A DNA stretch of 22,500 nucleotides from a virus, in IMG/VR virus record IMGVR_UViG_3300042567_000192, positions 1-22,500 of that record. One strand, written 5' to 3'. The notes under the pieces were generated by a model, which had not been told where the DNA came from, ran no database searches, and saw nothing but the letters and a program-made list of their open reading frames with translations. The position numbers were made by a program, and so were the translations under genes. Positions 3 through 14,665 of this stretch are shown piece after piece (position 1 is the stretch's first letter; each line of letters starts with the position of its first letter).

Positions 3-689
3 GGTATTCAACAAGCAGAAGGCGCACAACAGGCATTTAAACCATTACAAACTGGTGCTGAGAGTTTGTTTAAACTTGGTGCAGGTTATCTTGCTGAGAA
101 GCCTGAAGATGTTGCTAAAAACTATCTTGCCTCTCAAATGGCTCTCTTGAAACCAGGCAGAGAACTAGAACTTGCTAATCTGCAAAACAGACTCCAACAA
201 CAAGGTCGTGGCGGCCTGTCTGTTGCTCAAGGTGGCACTATGGGTGCTACTACTCCTGAACTACAGGCTTTGTTTAATGCTCGTGCTAGACAAGAGGCTG
301 AATTAGCGGCTAATGCTCAACAATTGGGTCAGAGGGATGTTTTGTTTGGTTCAAGTCTATTGGGTCAAGGCGCACAAACAATGGGGCAATACTATGGTGG
401 TCAGCAAGCCGCCTATGCCCCATTTACAACTGCTTTAGGTCAGGTTCAAGGCTTAGAGACTTTAGGTCAACAACCATTCCAAATGGGCGCTCAACTTGGT
501 AAAGAAGCGTCTACAGCGGGTGCAAGGGTTGGTGAATTGGGATTGGGCGGTGCTAGATTAAGTACAGCCTTAGCGACAAGTGCAAATGCTACTACCAATC
601 CTTATGCCCAAGCATTGATGGCGGCAGGTAATCCAAATGCTATGTTTGGTCAATCACTTGGTAATGTGTTTGGCGGTCTATTTTCGTAA
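3..689 (+). CDS. Probable internal virion protein, 5'-truncated by window edge
   Basis: The frame is open from base 3 with no stop, so the gene enters from outside the window and only its C-terminal 228 codons are seen. A TTG at 66 is in frame but has no ribosome binding site and is not the real start. The protein is rich in Gly, Ala and Gln and has no signal peptide; its first visible half (AEKPEDVAKNYLASQMALLK, then ELELANLQNRLQQQ) looks helical, and the C-terminal half is low-complexity GxG-rich. It precedes two similar proteins with 9-nt and -1-nt spacing. This composition just upstream of a lysis cassette is typical of internal-virion or DNA-ejection proteins of podovirus-type phages. 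I recognise no named family, and the role is inferred from composition and position. Confidence 0.75.
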   Translation, partial: GIQQAEGAQQAFKPLQTGAESLFKLGAGYLAEKPEDVAKNYLASQMALLKPGRELELANLQNRLQQQGRGGLSVAQGGTMGATTPELQALFNARARQEAELAANAQQLGQRDVLFGSSLLGQGAQTMGQYYGGQQAAYAPFTTALGQVQGLETLGQQPFQMGAQLGKEASTAGARVGELGLGGARLSTALATSANATTNPYAQALMAAGNPNAMFGQSLGNVFGGLFS

Positions 690-698
690 GGAATCATC

Positions 699-1955
699 AT
701 GGCAAGTATAGTAGAAGGTCTTTTTGGCATGACTCCTGAAGCGTATCAGGGTCAACAGTACCAACAAGACTTAAAGAGAAGTTATGAATTAGCACAACTC
801 GATCCTGGTGCTGCGGCAAGAGCGCAGTTGGGAGCAAGTGTTGGTCAACTTGGTCGTGGCTTTGCAGGTGCTTTGGGCATAGAAGACCCACAACTGAAGT
901 TAATTAGTGCTCGTCAACAGATTCTTGGTCAACTAGATCAATCTGATCCTGAATCAATCTTAAAAGGCGCTCAGATGTTGGCACAGATGGGTGACCAACA
1001 AGGTGCTATGGCTTTGGCTCAATATGCTCGTCAAGCAGAAAGTGATGTGGCTCAAACTAAACAAAGACTAGCGGCTGCGTTAGCTTCTGAAGCAGCAGCA
1101 AGACGGGAGCGAATCCAAGCCGATCCATTCCAAAAATTAGTGGAATCAGGTAAATATACCCCCGCAAGTCTTGCAGAGTATCAAAGAACTGGATTACCCG
1201 CAGATTTAGTCTTATACGAAAAACCAGAAAAACCTGAGAACCTACGTTCTGGAGAAAAAAGAGAAGCAGTTTCTAATGAAATGTTTGACAACAGATCATT
1301 TAAAGACCTTACACCAAAAGAAAAAGCAATTGTTAATAAGCGTCTAGAAGATGAAGAAGGTACAAGAGCTGAAAAAGGTGCTCCTAAAACTATTTTGCCT
1401 GGTCAACCAGTACCTACAAAAGATTGGATGGACTTTACTCAGAAAGTTTTGAGTAGTGATCCAATAATGCAACGCACTTCTACGATTCTTTCTGATGCAC
1501 CAAGTGCTATTGAAATTATTAGAAACTCAAGAAGCAATGATTTTGCAGCGGCTTCTTTGCCAACTTCAATAGCATTGTTGACAGGTCAAGGTAAGAATAT
1601 GTCAAATGCTGATGTTGACAGGTTTGCCCGTACTGGTGGACTTGATGATCGTTTAGCACAAGATGCTGTAAAGTTCTTTACTGGTAGAACAACTGAAGTT
1701 AAGAAAGATCAAGCAGAGAAGTTTGCTATTGCTCTTTATCGTGGCGCATTGATTGAACGTAAGAAGAAACTAGAGTCGGCAGCAGAAGAGTTTGGCTATA
1801 CCGAGTCACCAAACTACAAAGTTGCACTAAGAAACATTGATAGTCAACTTGCTCAGTTTAAACTTGTTAAAAAAGGTGAAGGCGCACCAACTGCAACAAA
1901 AACTGGCAATCCTTTGATTGACAAATATCTATTCCCTCAAGCGGAGAGTAAATAA
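699..1955 (+). CDS. Probable internal virion / DNA ejection protein (418 aa)
   Basis: The ATG at 699 follows a good Shine-Dalgarno (AAGGA at 689-693, about 5 nt away), just after the stop of the previous gene. The N-terminal 110 residues are Ala/Gln-rich and amphipathic. Residues about 110-145 (AESDVAQTKQRLAAALASEA, then ARRERIQ) look like coiled coil. The middle is charged and the C-terminus ends in IDKYLFPQAESK. There are no transmembrane segments or catalytic motifs that I recognise. The stop overlaps the next start (TAATG), implying translational coupling with the 923-aa protein. Together with its neighbours it fits a set of ejection proteins stored inside the capsid; this is inference, and a tail-associated role is possible. 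Confidence 0.8.
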   Translation: MASIVEGLFGMTPEAYQGQQYQQDLKRSYELAQLDPGAAARAQLGASVGQLGRGFAGALGIEDPQLKLISARQQILGQLDQSDPESILKGAQMLAQMGDQQGAMALAQYARQAESDVAQTKQRLAAALASEAAARRERIQADPFQKLVESGKYTPASLAEYQRTGLPADLVLYEKPEKPENLRSGEKREAVSNEMFDNRSFKDLTPKEKAIVNKRLEDEEGTRAEKGAPKTILPGQPVPTKDWMDFTQKVLSSDPIMQRTSTILSDAPSAIEIIRNSRSNDFAAASLPTSIALLTGQGKNMSNADVDRFARTGGLDDRLAQDAVKFFTGRTTEVKKDQAEKFAIALYRGALIERKKKLESAAEEFGYTESPNYKVALRNIDSQLAQFKLVKKGEGAPTATKTGNPLIDKYLFPQAESK

Positions 1956-4726
1956 TGGCGACTTACGAACAAGTGATGGAAGCCCTGCGTAGAGCAGATG
2001 CAGAAGGTAATGTAGAGGATGCTCAGAAATTAGCGCAAATGGCTACAACGCTTCGCCCAGAAGGTGCTGGTGGTGGTCGAGGCTTGATGGGTGGCCCTAC
2101 TGCTGAAGGTAAAGCTAGAGCCGCTACAGGTTTGGGTGAGTTATTGTATGAAAGTGTAAAGAAGGGTGTTACACAACCATTTGCTAGGGCTACAGCAGGT
2201 AGTGCCATGCAAACAGGTACATTTGCTGGTGCTTTTCCTACTCAACCCGAACTAGAACCCATTACTACCGAGAGTGTTCAACGTGGTATGGGAGTAGACA
2301 CAGGCATTCGCCCTGCAACAGGTACACAAAGATATTTGGCGGCAGGTGTAGAGGCCTTGGCAGACCCAACAAATCTGATTGGTTTGCCAGTTACTACAGC
2401 AGGTCGTTTGGCTCTTGCAACTGGCTCTACTTTGGCTGGTATTGGTGGTGAATTTGGTGGCGAGGTTGGCAAACAAGTTGGAGGCATACCTGGTCAAGTT
2501 ACTGGTGGTATTTTGTTTGCTTTGCTATCAGGCGCAGGTGGGGCTAAAGGTGTTGGCCTAATGGCAGAAGCCAAAAACAGAGTTAATATAAAAGACTTCA
2601 ATGTTGAGGATTTAGCTGGTGTTGAAGGAACTTCTAGAGCTAAAGATTTGGTTGAGAAAGCATTGGCTGCTGATCCAGACCTTAAAACTCGATTAGAAGA
2701 CATCAGGAAAAAGATTGCCTTTGTTGGTGGACAACCTGATATCTTGGCAACTGGCGGTGTTGATAGCAGGATTTTTAGAGCAAGTTTAGAAAATTTAGTC
2801 AGTAAAGATGCAAAAGTAGCTGGTGATTTAAAGAAAATTTATGATGACTTGCAGACTGCTGTGCGTGTCAAAGCTAATGAGCTGTACCCACAGCCTAGTT
2901 CAGGTAATAAATTTATTCCCGCTGAGATTCCAACAGCATCAGCAAAAATTGCAGAACTTGAAATTGACTATGGTAAAAGATTAAAAGCACTTTCTGACCA
3001 ACAAGAAAAACTTACTCAATCTTTGAATTTGGCTGGAAATATTGCGCCTGTTGATCTTGGAAAACCAATTCAAGGTGTTGTTTTAGCGCAAGAGGCTGCG
3101 GCTAGAAACGCCTTGTCTCCAGAGTATGAGAGCGTGAAAAAGCAAGCATCTCAATTGGGTGCTATTTTGCCAGCCAACGAAACTCAAGCCTTGTTAAACA
3201 CGGCTAAAGATTTGTTTATGCAAGACCCTTGGGGTCGTCAATCCGACTTACTCAAGATGGTTCAAAAACAATCTGGTGAGTTTTCACGCCTTAGAAAACA
3301 ACGTCAAGTAGACACAACACTACCTGCGATTCCTGGTCAAGCACCGCCAGTAGATTTAACTGTTGGCTTGGATATTACAAGCCTAGACTCATTAAAGAGG
3401 CGTGTAGCGGCTGATATTCGCACGATCAAAAACGATGCAACTAAAGACAAACTAATCTTGTTGCAACAGCGTGTAGATGATGCTTTGAATCAAGTGCAAA
3501 ACTCTAGTGGCGACATCAATGTTAATTTTCGTGGTGGAAAGACAACATTTGGCGATGCCATGTCACAACTTGATTTGGATTACTACAACAAGGTAGGAAT
3601 TCCATTTAAAGATGCTGATGCCATTCAGAAGATTGGTTCGCAAGAGTATGCAGAACGAATTGCCCCTCAGTTGGCAAGCAGTCCTACAGCAATGACTCAG
3701 TTTTTAAAGGTTGCTGGTGATGAGGGTATGCCTTTGGCTGAAAAAGCAGTTATGTCTAAGTTATATAACGCTGCTTTAAACAAAGAAGGTTTTATTGATC
3801 CTATAAAGCTAAATTCTTTGATTACAAAGACAAGCAACAATGGTGGTTATAGCGATATTCTTGCTCAATTGCCTGGTCTTAAAACTAGGCTTGATGATGC
3901 TGCCAATAGAGCAAATCTTCTTTCTGGTGAACGAGTAGCCATTGATGATGCCGCAAAAGCTGAGAGAGTTCGTTTAGGCGACTCTTTCTTGGCAAACTAC
4001 GAAACTGGTGGTGTTGATGCAATTACAAGTCGTATGCTTGGCTCTACTGGTAAAGGTTATCAATCAAAATTCTTTAATGATTTAAGCAAACTATCTCCAA
4101 ATGACCAAACTAACACTACCTTGGCTGTTCAAAACGCTTTGGTTACAAAGATGTTAGACAACAAAGACCCGTTTGCCTATTTGCAAAAGAACAAAGATAC
4201 GTTTGTCAGATTGTTTGGTAGACAACATTACGATAACTTAGCTTCCTTGGCTGATGTGCAGCGTTTAGCCACAAAGATAAATGTAGATCGTCTTCCTGTA
4301 GATCAGGTAGCTATTAAAGAAATGTCTGCATTACAAAGAACGATGGGTGGTGTTGATCCTAAGAAGGTTTCTGCAATCTTAGTAAACCAAATCTCTAGCG
4401 TGTTTAACAAGGGTTTCCGCATTGCGGCTGCTATTGGTCAAGAAAACATCGACCAAGCGACTAAAGACGCTCACAGGAAATTGTTTTTGGATAAAGGTGG
4501 TTTGGATGGCGTAATTAAAGCATCTACCCGTCTAATAAACAAAAAAGGTCAAGAGGTAGAGTTAACAGACTTTATTAAGCCTGGTGATTTGTCTAATTTG
4601 GCAAACTCAATAGGAATGTCTGTTTTACGAACTGGTTATTTGGGCGGTTCTGTTGCGGCTTCACCAAGCGAGGTGATAGCTCCAGAACCTGAGTCTTCTT
4701 ATCAATATACCCCAATGGTTCAGTAA
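1955..4726 (+). CDS. Large internal virion / DNA ejection protein (923 aa)
   Basis: The start is coupled to the previous stop by TAATG (ATG 1955). Residues 2-30 (YEQVMEALRRADAEGNVEDA...) form a charged helix of a type often seen at the N-terminus of large phage ejection proteins. Residues about 125-200 are Gly/Ala-rich and hydrophobic (LALATGSTLAGIGGEFGG, then GGILFALLSGAGGAKGVG), suiting membrane insertion or channel formation. About 210-900 is mostly helical with coiled-coil-like stretches (340-360, 470-520). No lysozyme or transglycosylase motif (E-S...GLMQ) is visible. Size, hydrophobic N-terminal section and helical bulk match the largest internal virion proteins of T7/P22-type phages, which cross the envelope during DNA entry. 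Function is inferred. It is the largest gene in the window. Confidence 0.85.
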   Translation: MATYEQVMEALRRADAEGNVEDAQKLAQMATTLRPEGAGGGRGLMGGPTAEGKARAATGLGELLYESVKKGVTQPFARATAGSAMQTGTFAGAFPTQPELEPITTESVQRGMGVDTGIRPATGTQRYLAAGVEALADPTNLIGLPVTTAGRLALATGSTLAGIGGEFGGEVGKQVGGIPGQVTGGILFALLSGAGGAKGVGLMAEAKNRVNIKDFNVEDLAGVEGTSRAKDLVEKALAADPDLKTRLEDIRKKIAFVGGQPDILATGGVDSRIFRASLENLVSKDAKVAGDLKKIYDDLQTAVRVKANELYPQPSSGNKFIPAEIPTASAKIAELEIDYGKRLKALSDQQEKLTQSLNLAGNIAPVDLGKPIQGVVLAQEAAARNALSPEYESVKKQASQLGAILPANETQALLNTAKDLFMQDPWGRQSDLLKMVQKQSGEFSRLRKQRQVDTTLPAIPGQAPPVDLTVGLDITSLDSLKRRVAADIRTIKNDATKDKLILLQQRVDDALNQVQNSSGDINVNFRGGKTTFGDAMSQLDLDYYNKVGIPFKDADAIQKIGSQEYAERIAPQLASSPTAMTQFLKVAGDEGMPLAEKAVMSKLYNAALNKEGFIDPIKLNSLITKTSNNGGYSDILAQLPGLKTRLDDAANRANLLSGERVAIDDAAKAERVRLGDSFLANYETGGVDAITSRMLGSTGKGYQSKFFNDLSKLSPNDQTNTTLAVQNALVTKMLDNKDPFAYLQKNKDTFVRLFGRQHYDNLASLADVQRLATKINVDRLPVDQVAIKEMSALQRTMGGVDPKKVSAILVNQISSVFNKGFRIAAAIGQENIDQATKDAHRKLFLDKGGLDGVIKASTRLINKKGQEVELTDFIKPGDLSNLANSIGMSVLRTGYLGGSVAASPSEVIAPEPESSYQYTPMVQ

Positions 4727-10750: not shown

Positions 10751-10930
10751 ATGAAAACTGAAATACTTGAAAAAAGATGCGCTGAAGCCTTGCTTGGGTA
10801 CTCTCAAACAATGGCAGATGCTTATACAACCGAACCAGAGGACTTTGATGCGGCTGTAACAGCTTTGCTTGCCAGAACGCTAGAACTCCATCTAAACCGA
10901 ACAATCAACCTGGAGAACCTTTACAAATGA
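10751..10930 (+). CDS. Small helical protein, first gene of the rightward early operon (59 aa)
   Basis: The ATG 10751 to TGA 10928-10930 overlaps the next start (ATGA). The product (MKTEILEKRCAEALLGYSQT, then MADAYTTEPEDFDAAVTALL, then ARTLELHLNRTINLENLYK) is entirely helical and amphipathic, with no Cys-rich or membrane region. The upstream ribosome binding site is weak (only GAG near the start). The coupling to the next gene and absence of an alternative gene in this strip support it; an antisense frame here has no coupling. No family is recognised. Confidence 0.6.
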   Translation: MKTEILEKRCAEALLGYSQTMADAYTTEPEDFDAAVTALLARTLELHLNRTINLENLYK

Positions 10931-11289
10931 CCCAAGAAGCAGTAATCAGAGCATTACAAAACGGCCCACTTACTTCCTACCAAATAGAGGATTTAACAGG
11001 CATACCAAGACTATCTATTGCAGCTTGTTGCACAAAAATGAGCTACAAGAAGAAGCTAAAAATTGGAAAAATTAAGATGGGTCGGTCTTGGGTTTCTCAG
11101 TACACATTAGCTCCACACATGATTGAGGCTGAAAAGGTAGAAGAGCCTCGTGATCTGCTAAACCCGTTTGACATCAGAAACGCTAAAGGCATCTTCACTA
11201 AGGCTGAATATGCTTCTATGAACTCCCAAGCTGTCAGATTGTTTGGCAGACAACCAACAAACGAAATTACCAACAATCAATTTATTTGA
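10927..11289 (+). CDS. Winged-helix-type DNA-binding protein (120 aa)
   Basis: It is coupled to the preceding small gene by ATGA. Residues 1-60 read as a winged helix: helix 1 (QEAVIRALQNGP), helix-turn-helix (LTSYQIEDLTGIPRLSIAAC) and a basic wing (KKKLKIGKIKMGRSWVSQYT). This is the pattern of small phage transcription regulators or replication-linked factors that sense operators. The C-terminal half (RDLLNPFDIRNAKGIFTKAE, then ASMNSQAVRLFGRQ) is of unknown fold. As the second gene from the divergent control region it is a candidate early regulator. DNA-binding specificity cannot be read from the sequence. Confidence 0.78.
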   Translation: MTQEAVIRALQNGPLTSYQIEDLTGIPRLSIAACCTKMSYKKKLKIGKIKMGRSWVSQYTLAPHMIEAEKVEEPRDLLNPFDIRNAKGIFTKAEYASMNSQAVRLFGRQPTNEITNNQFI

Positions 11290-11312: not shown

Positions 11313-11394
11313 GGTACGAAGTCATGAGCGTACCGAAAAGAGAAGTCTCCCCTCCTGCCGCAGTTTCTTTTAGGGAGAATTGGAACAAGAGACT
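11313..11394 (+). promoter_or_regulatory. Structured 5' leader of the DUF1376 gene
   Basis: The 108-nt gap contains several complementary segments. GGTACG (11313-11318) pairs with CGTACC (11329-11334) around a 10-nt loop. TCTCCC (11346-11351) pairs with GGGAGA (11373-11378), a purine stretch that could act as a ribosome binding site. AGTCTC (11344-11349) can instead pair with GAGACT (11389-11394), four nt before the start codon at 11398. The last two pairings share bases and exclude each other, as in a switch. This is seen in sequence; function is inferred. Confidence 0.45.
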
Positions 11395-11422
11395 GCTATG
11401 CACTACTATTCATTTCATGTGA
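11324..11422 (+). CDS. Candidate 32-aa ORF overlapping the DUF1376 start
   Basis: The ATG 11324 lies in the loop of the leader hairpin, with AGGT at 11312-11315 about 8 nt upstream, and the frame ends at TGA 11420-11422, 25 nt into the DUF1376 gene. The product is MSVPKREVSPPAAVSFRENW followed by NKRLLCTTIHFM. Translating it would open the stems around the DUF1376 start, so it could act as a coupling leader peptide. It has no recognised family and could be chance; the case rests on position only. Confidence 0.35.
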   Translation: MSVPKREVSPPAAVSFRENWNKRLLCTTIHFM

Positions 11423-12171
11423 GTGACTACATTCACGATACAGCGCATTTATCTTTGTACGAAGATTTAGCGTTTAGGCGTTTACTAGACTTGTACTACA
11501 CAAGCGAAAAGCCTATCCCAAATAAAACCCATGAGGTTTCCAGACGGATAAGGATGGCAAATCAAATCAATGCCGTTCAAACAGTTCTGGAGGAATTCTT
11601 TATGTATGACATAGAGAATGATTGTTGGTTTCACAAAAGATGTGATGAAACTATTTTGGCTTATCAGGCAAAAGCAGAGCGTAATAGGGAGGTTGGAAAG
11701 CTTGGTGGTAGACCTAAAGCAAACCCAAACGCTATCCCACAAGAAACCCAAGTGGTTTCCAAAGATAACCCTAACCAAGAACCAATAACCATTAACCATA
11801 AACCAATTAAAGAGAACAAGAAAGGCTCACGCCTATCTCAAGATTGGTTTCTCAGTAAATCAATGGGAGATTGGGCTACTCAGGAAAGACCAGACCTAGA
11901 TGTTCGTCAGGTTGCTGAACAGTTTAAAGATTACTGGATTGCCCAAGCAGGTCAAAAGGGTGTCAAGTTGGATTGGGATGCAACATGGCGTAATTGGGTA
12001 CGCAACACCAAAGCTGTTAAGCCAAATCCCTATGACGTTGGGAAGACCACAGTTCCTTCAAAGAATGAGCCTAACCTTGCTTTGATAAAGATTGAAGAAG
12101 ACGCAAAAAAGGCAGCACCTATTCCGCTAGAAGTCTTGGCTAAGATGGCTCAAATCAGGGGCAGAGCATGA
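11398..12171 (+). CDS. DUF1376 replication-type phage protein (257 aa)
   Basis: An in-frame TTG at 11380 exists, but ATG 11398 gives the family's usual N-terminus (MHYYSFHVSDYIHDTAHLSL). Residues 1-90 are the DUF1376 domain (EDLAFRRLLDLYYTSEKPIP, then VLEEFFMYDIENDCWFHKRC). A basic linker follows (residues about 95-145, REVGKLGGRPKANPNA). The C-terminal domain (LSQDWFLSKSMGDWATQERP, then LDWDATWRNWVRNTK) resembles the end of phage replication-initiator and helicase-loader proteins. DUF1376 proteins usually sit in phage replication modules; the precise activity is not established. It heads a coupled run with Mom-like and RusA genes, overlapping the Mom-like start by 4 nt. It is the only replication-type gene visible here. 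Confidence 0.85.
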   Translation: MHYYSFHVSDYIHDTAHLSLYEDLAFRRLLDLYYTSEKPIPNKTHEVSRRIRMANQINAVQTVLEEFFMYDIENDCWFHKRCDETILAYQAKAERNREVGKLGGRPKANPNAIPQETQVVSKDNPNQEPITINHKPIKENKKGSRLSQDWFLSKSMGDWATQERPDLDVRQVAEQFKDYWIAQAGQKGVKLDWDATWRNWVRNTKAVKPNPYDVGKTTVPSKNEPNLALIKIEEDAKKAAPIPLEVLAKMAQIRGRA

Positions 12172-12824
12172 GAGTGTTGCCAATAAACAACTTTGAAGTT
12201 GAACCTTGGTTGCTTGAAAAACACTATGCCAAGCGTATGCCACAAATAATGTTTTCTTTTGGGCTATACAAGGATGATATTCTTGTTGGCGTAATCACTT
12301 ATGGCATCCCTGCCTCGCCATCACTTTGCATGGGAATCTGTGGCAAAGAATACTCAGATAAGGTTTTAGAGTTAAATCGAGTCTGTCTGTTGGACAACCA
12401 CAAAAACGAAGCATCATTCCTTGTTGCGAACTCAATCAAGTTATTGCCAAAACCAATGATTGTTGTTTCTTATGCTGATACCAGTAAGGGTCATGTTGGC
12501 TACGTTTATCAAGCCACCAATTTCCTTTACACAGGACTTTCAGCAAATAGAGTTGATTGGACCATCAAAGGGCAAGAACATAAGCATTCAAAAACCATTA
12601 GTGATGGTATGACACTTGAGGGAATAAAAGAGCTTCATGGTGATGATTTTTATTACACAGAGCGTTCAAGAAAACATAGATATATTATCTTTCATGGTTC
12701 AAAAACTGATAAAAAAGTTTTACGTTCTAAATTGAAATACGAAGTTATGCCATATCCAAAAGGTGACTCTGAAAGATATGACTCTGGAACAACTGTAAAA
12801 ACACAACAACTTTTATTCGTATGA
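12168..12824 (+). CDS. Mom-like DNA adenine-modification protein (218 aa)
   Basis: It starts in the previous stop (ATGA) and ends in the next start (ATGA). The protein has hallmarks of the Mom family (phage Mu Mom, a GNAT-fold enzyme that adds a methylcarbamoyl group to adenine N6 in DNA and protects it from restriction): MFSFGLYKDDILVGVITYGI (28-47), LELNRVCLLDNHKNEASFLV (67-86), SYADTSKGHVGYVYQATNFL (101-120) and a basic C-terminal block ERSRKHRYIIF (165-175). The conserved SYAD...GH.G..YQATN core matches what I know of the family. Length is close to Mu Mom (about 230 aa). No Com-like zinc-finger translational activator is adjacent. The 3' half is AT-rich compared with neighbours. Activity on this phage's DNA is inferred. 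Confidence 0.85.
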   Translation: MRVLPINNFEVEPWLLEKHYAKRMPQIMFSFGLYKDDILVGVITYGIPASPSLCMGICGKEYSDKVLELNRVCLLDNHKNEASFLVANSIKLLPKPMIVVSYADTSKGHVGYVYQATNFLYTGLSANRVDWTIKGQEHKHSKTISDGMTLEGIKELHGDDFYYTERSRKHRYIIFHGSKTDKKVLRSKLKYEVMPYPKGDSERYDSGTTVKTQQLLFV

Positions 12825-12934
12825 ACTACTTTGAAGCCATGAGACTGCTAGACAGAGTTAAGGAAGGCGTACCTTATCCCGTACGTTTAATCAATCAAGC
12901 ATTGGAGCTAACTGGTGATCTGGAGCAGACGTAA
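12821..12934 (+). CDS. Small conserved-looking phage protein (37 aa)
   Basis: The ATG 12821 overlaps the Mom-like stop (ATGA) and the frame ends at TAA 12932-12934, 20 nt inside the next gene. The product (MNYFEAMRLLDRVKEGVPYP, then VRLINQALELTGDLEQT) is a compact helix-loop-helix. The pattern YFEAMRLLDRV..GVPYPV..IN.AL.LTGD looks conserved to me from other phages, though I cannot check. It supplies the ribosome binding site of the next gene. Function unknown. Confidence 0.65.
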   Translation: MNYFEAMRLLDRVKEGVPYPVRLINQALELTGDLEQT

Positions 12935-13127
12935 TATTCAAGGCCCAAGCGATAGAGTAATCCTCGAACAGTCTGAAGCTAGAGAACTCTATCGGAATTG
13001 GGAAGGCAGTAAAAATCGTGACCTTATCAGGGCGAGACTTGAGAGAGCCGAAAGAATTTATGGTACTGGTGCTAGAGACAGAATCCGAGCTTTTATGAAA
13101 CAAATGCAAGATGGGACACTACTATGA
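12915..13127 (+). CDS. Small basic helical phage protein (70 aa), GTG start
   Basis: The GTG 12915 is supported by GGAG at 12904-12907 seven nt upstream and overlaps the previous gene by 20 nt; it ends in the RusA start (ATGA). The chain is basic and helical, with MIWSRRNIQGPSDRVILEQS, then LYRNWEGSKNRDLIRARLER, then AERIYGTGARDRIRAFMKQM. The regular Arg spacing suggests nucleic-acid contact. It lies between a DNA-modification gene and a junction resolvase. No named family is recognised. Confidence 0.75.
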   Translation: MIWSRRNIQGPSDRVILEQSEARELYRNWEGSKNRDLIRARLERAERIYGTGARDRIRAFMKQMQDGTLL

Positions 13128-13552
13128 GCTTCATGGTCAATTTCAAAGTAGACGCTAACCCTGTTGGCAAACAAAGGGCTAGATACGTCAAGAGGGGAAA
13201 CTTTGTGCAAACTTACACCCCTGACAAAACAAGAAACTACGAGGCTTTACTCAAGGATGCCGCAATCGAGGCAATGGGAAGTTCCGAACCCTTGGAAACC
13301 CCTGTGAGCCTATATCTTTACATTCGAGTACCAATCCCTAAGTCATGCACTAAAAAGCGTCTAGAAGCCATTGATAACGGGTCAGAGAAGCCAACAAAGA
13401 AGCCTGACGCAAGCAATATCCTAAAAAGCGTAGAAGATGGTATGAACGGGGTTGTTTACCATGACGACTCGCAGATCATAAACATCCATGTAACTAAGGT
13501 TTATTCAAGTCTGCCAGGCGTTGATATTTGCGTAAAAGAATGCTTGGACTAA
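13124..13552 (+). CDS. rusA: RusA-type Holliday junction resolvase (142 aa)
   Basis: It is coupled to the previous gene by ATGA. RusA-family landmarks are an N-terminal strand and basic loop (VDANPVGKQRARYVKRG), a central strand (SLYLYIRVPIP) and the catalytic block KKPDASNILKSVEDGMNGVV followed by YHDDSQI. RusA enzymes form dimers that cut four-way junctions symmetrically using three acidic residues and a Lys. Aligning with E. coli RusA by spacing, D95 matches D70, K101 matches K76 and D114 or D115 matches D91, but the D72 position is Ser97. It would resolve junctions made by the annealing protein of the opposite operon. Length is near the family's typical 120-140 aa. Confidence 0.9.
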   Translation: MSFMVNFKVDANPVGKQRARYVKRGNFVQTYTPDKTRNYEALLKDAAIEAMGSSEPLETPVSLYLYIRVPIPKSCTKKRLEAIDNGSEKPTKKPDASNILKSVEDGMNGVVYHDDSQIINIHVTKVYSSLPGVDICVKECLD

Positions 13553-14040: not shown

Positions 14041-14363
14041 GCGATAACCCACACAAGGCGGTGCAATTCCTGATTGACACTGCACCCCTTTATTCCAAGG
14101 CCAAGGCTACTCGGATGTTTCTAGAGGAATTCAGAAAAAGCCGCAAAGCCCAGCTCATGTCACAAGCGGGAACTGAGGTTTTAGGAAAGCAGGAAACCTA
14201 TGCCTATGCTCACCCTGACTACATCGAAATACTCGAAGGAATCAGGGAAGCTGTCGAATTAGAAGAGCGTTATCGCTGGCTTATGACGGCTGCACAAACC
14301 CGCATCGAGGTATTTAGAACCGAGCAATACAGTGCCAGGCATGAAATAAAAAACACCCAATAA
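14037..14363 (+). CDS. Conserved-looking helical phage protein (108 aa)
   Basis: It is coupled upstream by ATGA and downstream by TAATG. The protein is almost all helix: AVQFLIDTAPLYSKAKATRM, FLEEFRKSRKAQLMSQAG, YAYAHPDYIEILEGIREAVE, LEERYRWLMTAAQTRIEVFR. The EEFRKS..A.LM and LEERYRWLMTAAQ.RIE.FR motifs are ones I associate with an uncharacterised phage family found next to Ref-like HNH nucleases. A role linked to DNA metabolism is inferred from position only. Confidence 0.78.
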   Translation: MSDNPHKAVQFLIDTAPLYSKAKATRMFLEEFRKSRKAQLMSQAGTEVLGKQETYAYAHPDYIEILEGIREAVELEERYRWLMTAAQTRIEVFRTEQYSARHEIKNTQ

Positions 14364-14665
14364 TGCAATCAAAGAACAAACCTAAACCGAGCGCAGGGGA
14401 AAGGCTGCACATAGCCAAAATTAAACTCATGTCATGCATTATTTGCGACTCACCACCACCGAGCGAATGCCATGAAATAAACCAGGGCCAATGGTTTACA
14501 TCAATGCCACTATGCGCAGATTGTCATCGGGGAAGCTTAAACGGGATACATGGGCAGCGCAGATTGTGGAACGTCTACAAAATGGACGAATTGTCAGCAT
14601 TAAATGAAACCATCCGCAGAATATGCGAAGAGATGCCCCTAAAAAGCATTAAAACCCCGTTCTAG
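14363..14665 (+). CDS. Ref-like HNH nuclease (100 aa)
   Basis: The ATG overlaps the previous stop (TAATG). Zinc and catalytic-type residues are clear: C25-x2-C28 (CIICDS), C36-H37-E38 (ECHEI), C51-x2-C54-H55 (LCADCHRG) and H63 in GIHGQRRLW. This arrangement matches the RecA-dependent Ref nuclease family of P1 and relatives, small HNH enzymes that nick DNA within RecA filaments or help phage recombination. It closes the rightward early operon. An uncharacterised HNH of another subfamily is the alternative. Its length is shorter than P1 Ref (about 186 aa), whose N-terminal part is disordered. Confidence 0.78.
   Translation: MQSKNKPKPSAGERLHIAKIKLMSCIICDSPPPSECHEINQGQWFTSMPLCADCHRGSLNGIHGQRRLWNVYKMDELSALNETIRRICEEMPLKSIKTPF

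Follow-up and report, generated by a model that had tools for sequence, protein, structure and literature searches.

The mom locus and its operon

The stretch of DNA analysed here, called the window throughout, covers 22,500 nucleotides (positions 1 to 22,500 of virus record IMGVR_UViG_3300042567_000192) and carries, among genes of replication and recombination, an open reading frame that we confirm as a true member of the Mom family. The features needed for the argument are as follows.

10927-11289, + strand: Ren-like 120-aa protein, upstream in the operon (weak match to phrog_142, E=0.011); the second bait for sampling relatives
11380-12171, + strand: DUF1376/primosomal-protein-like gene, upstream border of the slot (PF07120, E=2.2e-21; phrog_3992 primosomal protein, E=2.5e-39)
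12157-12161, + strand: AGGGG, a Shine-Dalgarno-like sequence 6 nt before the mom ATG, within the end of the primosomal gene
12168-12171, + strand: ATGA, cassette entry junction, where the primosomal TGA stop and the mom ATG start overlap
12168-12824, + strand: mom, Mom-family (GNAT-fold) protein of 218 aa with an ATG start (matches to PF25680, phrog_1384 and 8bv8)
12821-12824, + strand: ATGA, cassette exit junction, where the mom stop and the start of the 37-aa ORF overlap
12821-12934, + strand: conserved small ORF of 37 aa (MNYFEAMRLLDRVKEGVPYP...), just outside the slot
12915-13127, + strand: conserved 70-aa protein, downstream border of the slot and the bait for mom-independent sampling
13124-13552, + strand: RusA-family Holliday-junction resolvase (PF05866, E=6.1e-33)

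A preliminary description of this DNA had placed mom, start-stop coupled, inside a replication and recombination operon, and both parts of that statement hold: the mom ATG shares the ATGA at 12168-12171 with the TGA of the upstream gene, the primosomal-type gene lies upstream and RusA downstream, and from 9.1 to 18 kb the + strand shows no terminator-like site. Promoter and terminator scans of the window gave no matches above chance. The opposite strand of the window encodes a Sak-type annealing protein and an HNH endonuclease, and the terminase and portal genes come later in its 22.5 kb. Three long ORFs (207, 418 and 923 aa) at 66-4726 have no Pfam or PHROG matches and are possibly virion or tail genes. 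RNA structure hiding the mom start, as in Mu, was considered and dropped, as the local fold at the start does not exceed shuffled sequences in stability (z=0.66); the Mu region, at z=0.71, is not flagged by the same test either.

Family membership and predicted fold of the Mom protein

The profile of the Mom family (PF25680) matches the 218-aa protein over model positions 14-202 of 202 with E=4.9e-37 and 128 bits, well over the curated cut-off of 27.1, and is its sole Pfam match, with no generic GNAT family scoring. The match to phrog_1384 ('Mom-like DNA modification protein') has E=2e-56, and phmmer recovers Mu Mom (8bv8) with E=2.4e-10 at about 28-29% identity. The two stretches that the preliminary description had quoted as the Mom-family core are found exactly, at residues 101-120 and 165-175. 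Of its relatives, 133 are full-length and ungapped, a single one of them with an internal stop; with a median dN/dS of 0.036 among distinct copies, mom is under strong purifying selection. An AlphaFold model built with 49 related sequences (pLDDT 86.5, pTM 0.80) has as its top PDB matches in Foldseek the two chains of Mu Mom, 8bv8_B and 8bv8_A (E=1.4e-10, probability 1.00, TM 0.66-0.70), and GNAT acetyltransferases rank after them, in agreement with the GNAT-type fold that had been proposed from the letters.

The title of PDB entry 8bv8 reads 'inactive mutant S124A', and Mu S124 aligns with S83 of the protein described here, which is invariant in 49 of 49 sequences. The residue whose mutation inactivates Mu Mom, according to that title, is thus conserved in the alignment as S83. 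The likeness to Mu Mom extends from the predicted GNAT-type fold and this serine to the motifs HY..R, L[NT]R, S[YF]AD, GxVYQAxNF and PYPK; the relatives of mom differ from each other in the middle region and the C-terminus, while the core motifs are invariant. Taken by itself, the Mom finding is ordinary, this being a routine member of its family.

Mom without Com

Phage Mu expresses its mom late and under tight control; the gene is protective to the phage and toxic if made early (PMC4461284), and it requires C and Com. The mom gene of the window differs in being without Com and ATGA-coupled in a replication operon, and the Mu arrangement of a com gene overlapping upstream of mom is absent from the window. 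No small ORF with a CxxC...CxxC pattern was found within 1.2 kb of mom on either strand, and tblastn with Mu Com gave no convincing match, while the same scan recovers Com in Mu, which bears out the earlier statement that no Com-like zinc finger is adjacent. Around 136 distinct mom genes no Com homologue was detected except in Mu itself; candidates for a hidden Com-like zinc finger near relatives' mom genes were rejected, as the forward-strand matches are mainly HNH/DUF968-like endonucleases and none is Com. A 100-aa protein at 14363-14665 of the window (phrog_1588) also has the CxxC...CxxC pattern and is probably HNH/DUF968-like, not a Com relative.

The implication of the preliminary description that the lack of Com sets this phage apart does not hold. 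Among 50,697 public phage records a Mom homologue is present in 278 and a Com homologue in 24, the latter from Mu-like Escherichia/Shigella phages and from Pseudomonas and Moraxella phages; Mom without Com is thus the normal case. Nor is the location of mom in a replication region a peculiarity, since named phages have it too: it lies near a helicase and a VRR nuclease in Roseobacter phage CRP-902, a few genes away from DnaD-type genes in Exiguobacterium phage EauM-23, and near a DNA polymerase in Enterococcus phage PMBT2. Many phages are known to carry Mom-like genes, and a protective role has been proposed for momylation (PMC7824862). Those of Listeria, Staphylococcus and Bacillus (Riggi) phages and of EauM-23, PMBT2 and CRP-902 encode proteins about 38-46% identical for most to the one described here; in the regions read no Com is annotated beside them, and some adjoin replication genes. 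They differ in that none is known to sit in an exchangeable modification slot.

One position with alternative DNA-modification genes

It is the location, a fixed but swappable slot, that is less ordinary here than either Mom or the absence of Com. The preliminary description was right about the identity of Mom and overlooked that its position is variable and shared with other DNA-modification modules. Relatives were collected with the flanking genes (70-aa and 120-aa) as bait, mom not being used, and gave 102 distinct loci; any difference in sequence sufficed to make a locus distinct, so some near-duplicates are among them. The slot was bounded by the upstream genes and by the 70-aa gene, or by RusA where the 70-aa gene was absent from the matches. 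It contains mom in 24 loci and a dpdA-like gene with a VUT/YhhQ-type transporter in 18; methyltransferases occupy it in a further 12, of N4/N6 type (PF01555) in 10 and of C5 type (PF00145) in 2, and one locus each has an ABC-GNAT fusion and a PAPS-reductase-like gene. A modification-type gene of one of six kinds is thus present in 56 of 102; the other 46 have no recognised modification gene. HNH genes or small genes of no known function also enter the slot, and together with these 46 loci this means that the slot is not dedicated to modification. Two kinds of modification gene never share a slot (0 observed against 9.0 expected, with 0 of 20,000 permutations as low), an exclusivity which is partly trivial, as there is a single slot, and which comes from phylogenetically non-independent loci.

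Where a cassette comes immediately after the primosomal gene, or after the gene that stands in for it, a 4-bp stop-start overlap is present in 44 of 45 junctions, whichever cassette it is. In empty slots the overlap with the 37-aa ORF is made by the primosomal gene, in the majority of loci in which this ORF could be placed. The 37-aa ORF (MNYFEAMRLLDRVKEGVPYP...) at the slot exit is retained in relatives with an empty slot.

The dpdA-like gene matches phrog_887 (queuine tRNA-ribosyltransferase) with E=5e-69, and in 18 of 18 slots it is paired with a transporter matching Vut_1 (E=1.2e-9, above the cut-off; to the NCBIfam preQ0-transporter model it has a weak match that falls short of the cut-off). 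The relatives' slot thus holds both parts of a DpdA-like cassette, TGT/DpdA homology and a putative precursor transporter; examples are L173:2815-3555 with the downstream ORF, and L202:7448-7969. Deazaguanine modification by DpdA is protective for phage DNA, and the YhhQ homologues that occur in some phages show no correlation with any phage group (PMC6884629). The alternative cassette resembles such DpdA plus queuosine-precursor-type transporter systems, whose chemistry, unlike that of Mom, replaces guanine; in contrast to the uncorrelated YhhQ homologues, here the pair is constant. The pairing with a small VUT/YhhQ-like transporter suggests import of a deazaguanine precursor.

Two rarer occupants are of interest in their own right. 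The 361-aa ABC-ATPase/GNAT fusion at L194:1403-2488 (the same gene is found in L256) matches phrog_11143, of no known function, with E=3e-112. A GNAT-ABC pair has been predicted to modify DNA bases (PMC7824862), and the presence of the fusion in the mom slot supports that prediction. PAPS-reductase-like genes lie in the mom slot or at the second site described below (L161:2760-3557, L263:3040-3906, L368:5990-6841); the one in L161 belongs to phrog_424, and PADLOC finds an SspD-like match at about 1e-15 in L161 and 1e-14 in L263, hinting at a link of these genes with DNA modification.

Exchangeable conflict genes at one genomic position are known from the hotspots of P2-like phages and P4-like satellites (PMC9122126). 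The present slot is alike in this respect and differs in content and context, since those hotspots hold anti-phage defence systems, while this one holds DNA-modification genes in a replication operon and is entered through a 4-bp stop-start overlap. Searches of an open-access library found no description of a slot exchanging Mom, DpdA and methyltransferases, and with this scope no priority is claimed.

Exchange between relatives and the second site

Close relatives appear to swap their DNA disguises at the slot. Loci L005 and L006 have mom genes 99-100% identical to that of the window, with an upstream-gene match of just 62-64%, and conversely the primosomal gene of L161-L163 is 95-97% identical to that of the window and is followed not by mom but by nothing, HNH genes or the PAPS-like gene. 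Slot contents change 44 times when mapped on a tree built from the upstream 120-aa gene and 39 times on one from the downstream gene, compared with 48.5 and 48.1 with shuffled labels. Exchange is not unique to the slot, because mosaicism pervades these phages.

A second variable site follows the 70-aa gene and ends at RusA or the alternative nuclease-like gene; of 95 loci, 23 have a C5 methyltransferase there. These methyltransferases sit just upstream of RusA or of its replacement, and the replacement itself, a short nuclease-like gene of another kind (cluster s1), takes the place of RusA (13124-13552 in the window) in about a quarter of relatives. Over 156 distinct loci, a C5 methyltransferase at the second site accompanies mom in 1 of 60 and is present in 31 of 96 loci that lack mom (Fisher p=8e-7, uncorrected for kinship). 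This rarity could reflect redundancy, incompatibility or linkage. The idea that modification genes exclude each other genome-wide proved wrong, as dpdA loci carry the downstream C5 methyltransferase in 6 of 15 cases.

The phage group

The group is uncultured, widely sampled and probably freshwater, the last judging by the metagenomes from which its members come; comparison by portal gene, primosomal gene or DNA found no cultured close relative. Among species-level bacterial and archaeal genomes the Mom profile hits only 9 contigs of metagenome-assembled genomes, 8 of which are clear Mom relatives (39-57% identity) scattered over unrelated lineages, and we therefore assign no host. A search of 30 related contigs (26.6-40.8 kb) for tyrosine and serine recombinase families detected its positive controls and gave no match in the contigs. 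This is suggestive of a virulent lifestyle, under which there would be less need of Mu-style silencing of mom, bearing in mind that the contigs may be fragments.

Proposed role of the Mom cassette

What would the Mom enzyme do for such a phage? By analogy with Mu (PMC4461284, PMC7824862) and from the company that the gene keeps in the slot, it most likely attaches a small acyl-type group to adenines of the phage's own DNA; in Mu the group on adenine is methylcarbamoyl. With an identity of only about 28-29%, the modifying group and the target sequence may differ from those of Mu. Modified adenines in replicating phage DNA would be shielded from host restriction. The enzyme is probably made early, since its gene lies mid-operon with its start codon overlapping the primosomal stop; position is the basis for this timing. 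It would be made alongside the replication proteins by ribosome hand-over at the overlap, helped by its own Shine-Dalgarno-like site, so that Com would not be needed. Because mom usually comes without a partner gene, whereas every dpdA-like gene comes with its transporter, the donor of the group is presumably taken from host metabolism. The mom gene would then be one of several alternative DNA-modification cassettes exchanged among related phages at the slot. We put the probability of this whole reading, a Mom enzyme acylating the phage's adenines against restriction, probably early, and carried as an exchangeable slot cassette, at about 80%.

The strongest competitor leaves DNA as the substrate and changes the chemistry, with another acyl group, base or site context than in Mu. 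The low identity to Mu Mom and the variable middle region and C-terminus of the relatives leave room for this, and an acyl-CoA such as glycyl-CoA has been proposed as donor for the Mom family (PMC7824862); the invariant core motifs and S124 equivalent, together with Mu Mom as the best fold match, speak against it, and we consider it unlikely while taking it seriously. Much harder to sustain is the idea of a GNAT acetyltransferase that targets a protein of the host, such as RNA polymerase, during takeover. Phage GNATs acetylating RNA polymerase are on record (PMC7824862), the fold is right and several Mom homologues are annotated just as 'acetyltransferase'; yet the sole Pfam match is Mom, and it is DNA methyltransferases and a DpdA-like gene that replace mom in the slot, which makes a host-protein target highly improbable.

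Two further alternatives concern control and location rather than chemistry. Since early production of Mu Mom is toxic (PMC4461284), some control of mom could be expected, and an activator replacing Com could be encoded elsewhere in the phage, for example by the conserved 70-aa or 37-aa neighbour, for which no function is known. The same neighbours stay in loci with an empty slot or with other genes in it, however, and most Mom-bearing phage records lack a detectable Com, so we regard a dedicated activator as improbable. The slot might also be a generic insertion site of mosaic phages, its enrichment in modification genes being functionally meaningless. The HNH and other genes that enter it, the 46 loci without a modification gene and the exchange of neighbours too (RusA against the other nuclease-like gene) would fit such a site; they have to be set against the six kinds of modification-type gene that fill the majority of slots, never two together, and against the near-absence of the second-site C5 methyltransferase from mom loci, uncorrected for kinship as this is. 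A meaningless slot seems to us rather doubtful.

Combining these observations, there may be one coupled slot through which the group exchanges adenine hypermodification, deazaguanine, methylation and possibly uncharacterised ABC-GNAT modules, with Mom incompatible or redundant with the second-site C5 methyltransferase and the exchange adaptive to host restriction. We put this wider proposal forward tentatively, at somewhat under even odds. If it is true, the swapping of modifications would be an adaptive response to host restriction. The slot offers close relatives with different DNA disguises, so that the protective value, cost and compatibility of these could be compared in one context, and its position ties the ABC-GNAT fusion and the PAPS-reductase-like proteins to DNA modification. 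With Mom found apart from Com in most phages, the elaborate control known from Mu looks specific to Mu-like and a few other temperate phages.
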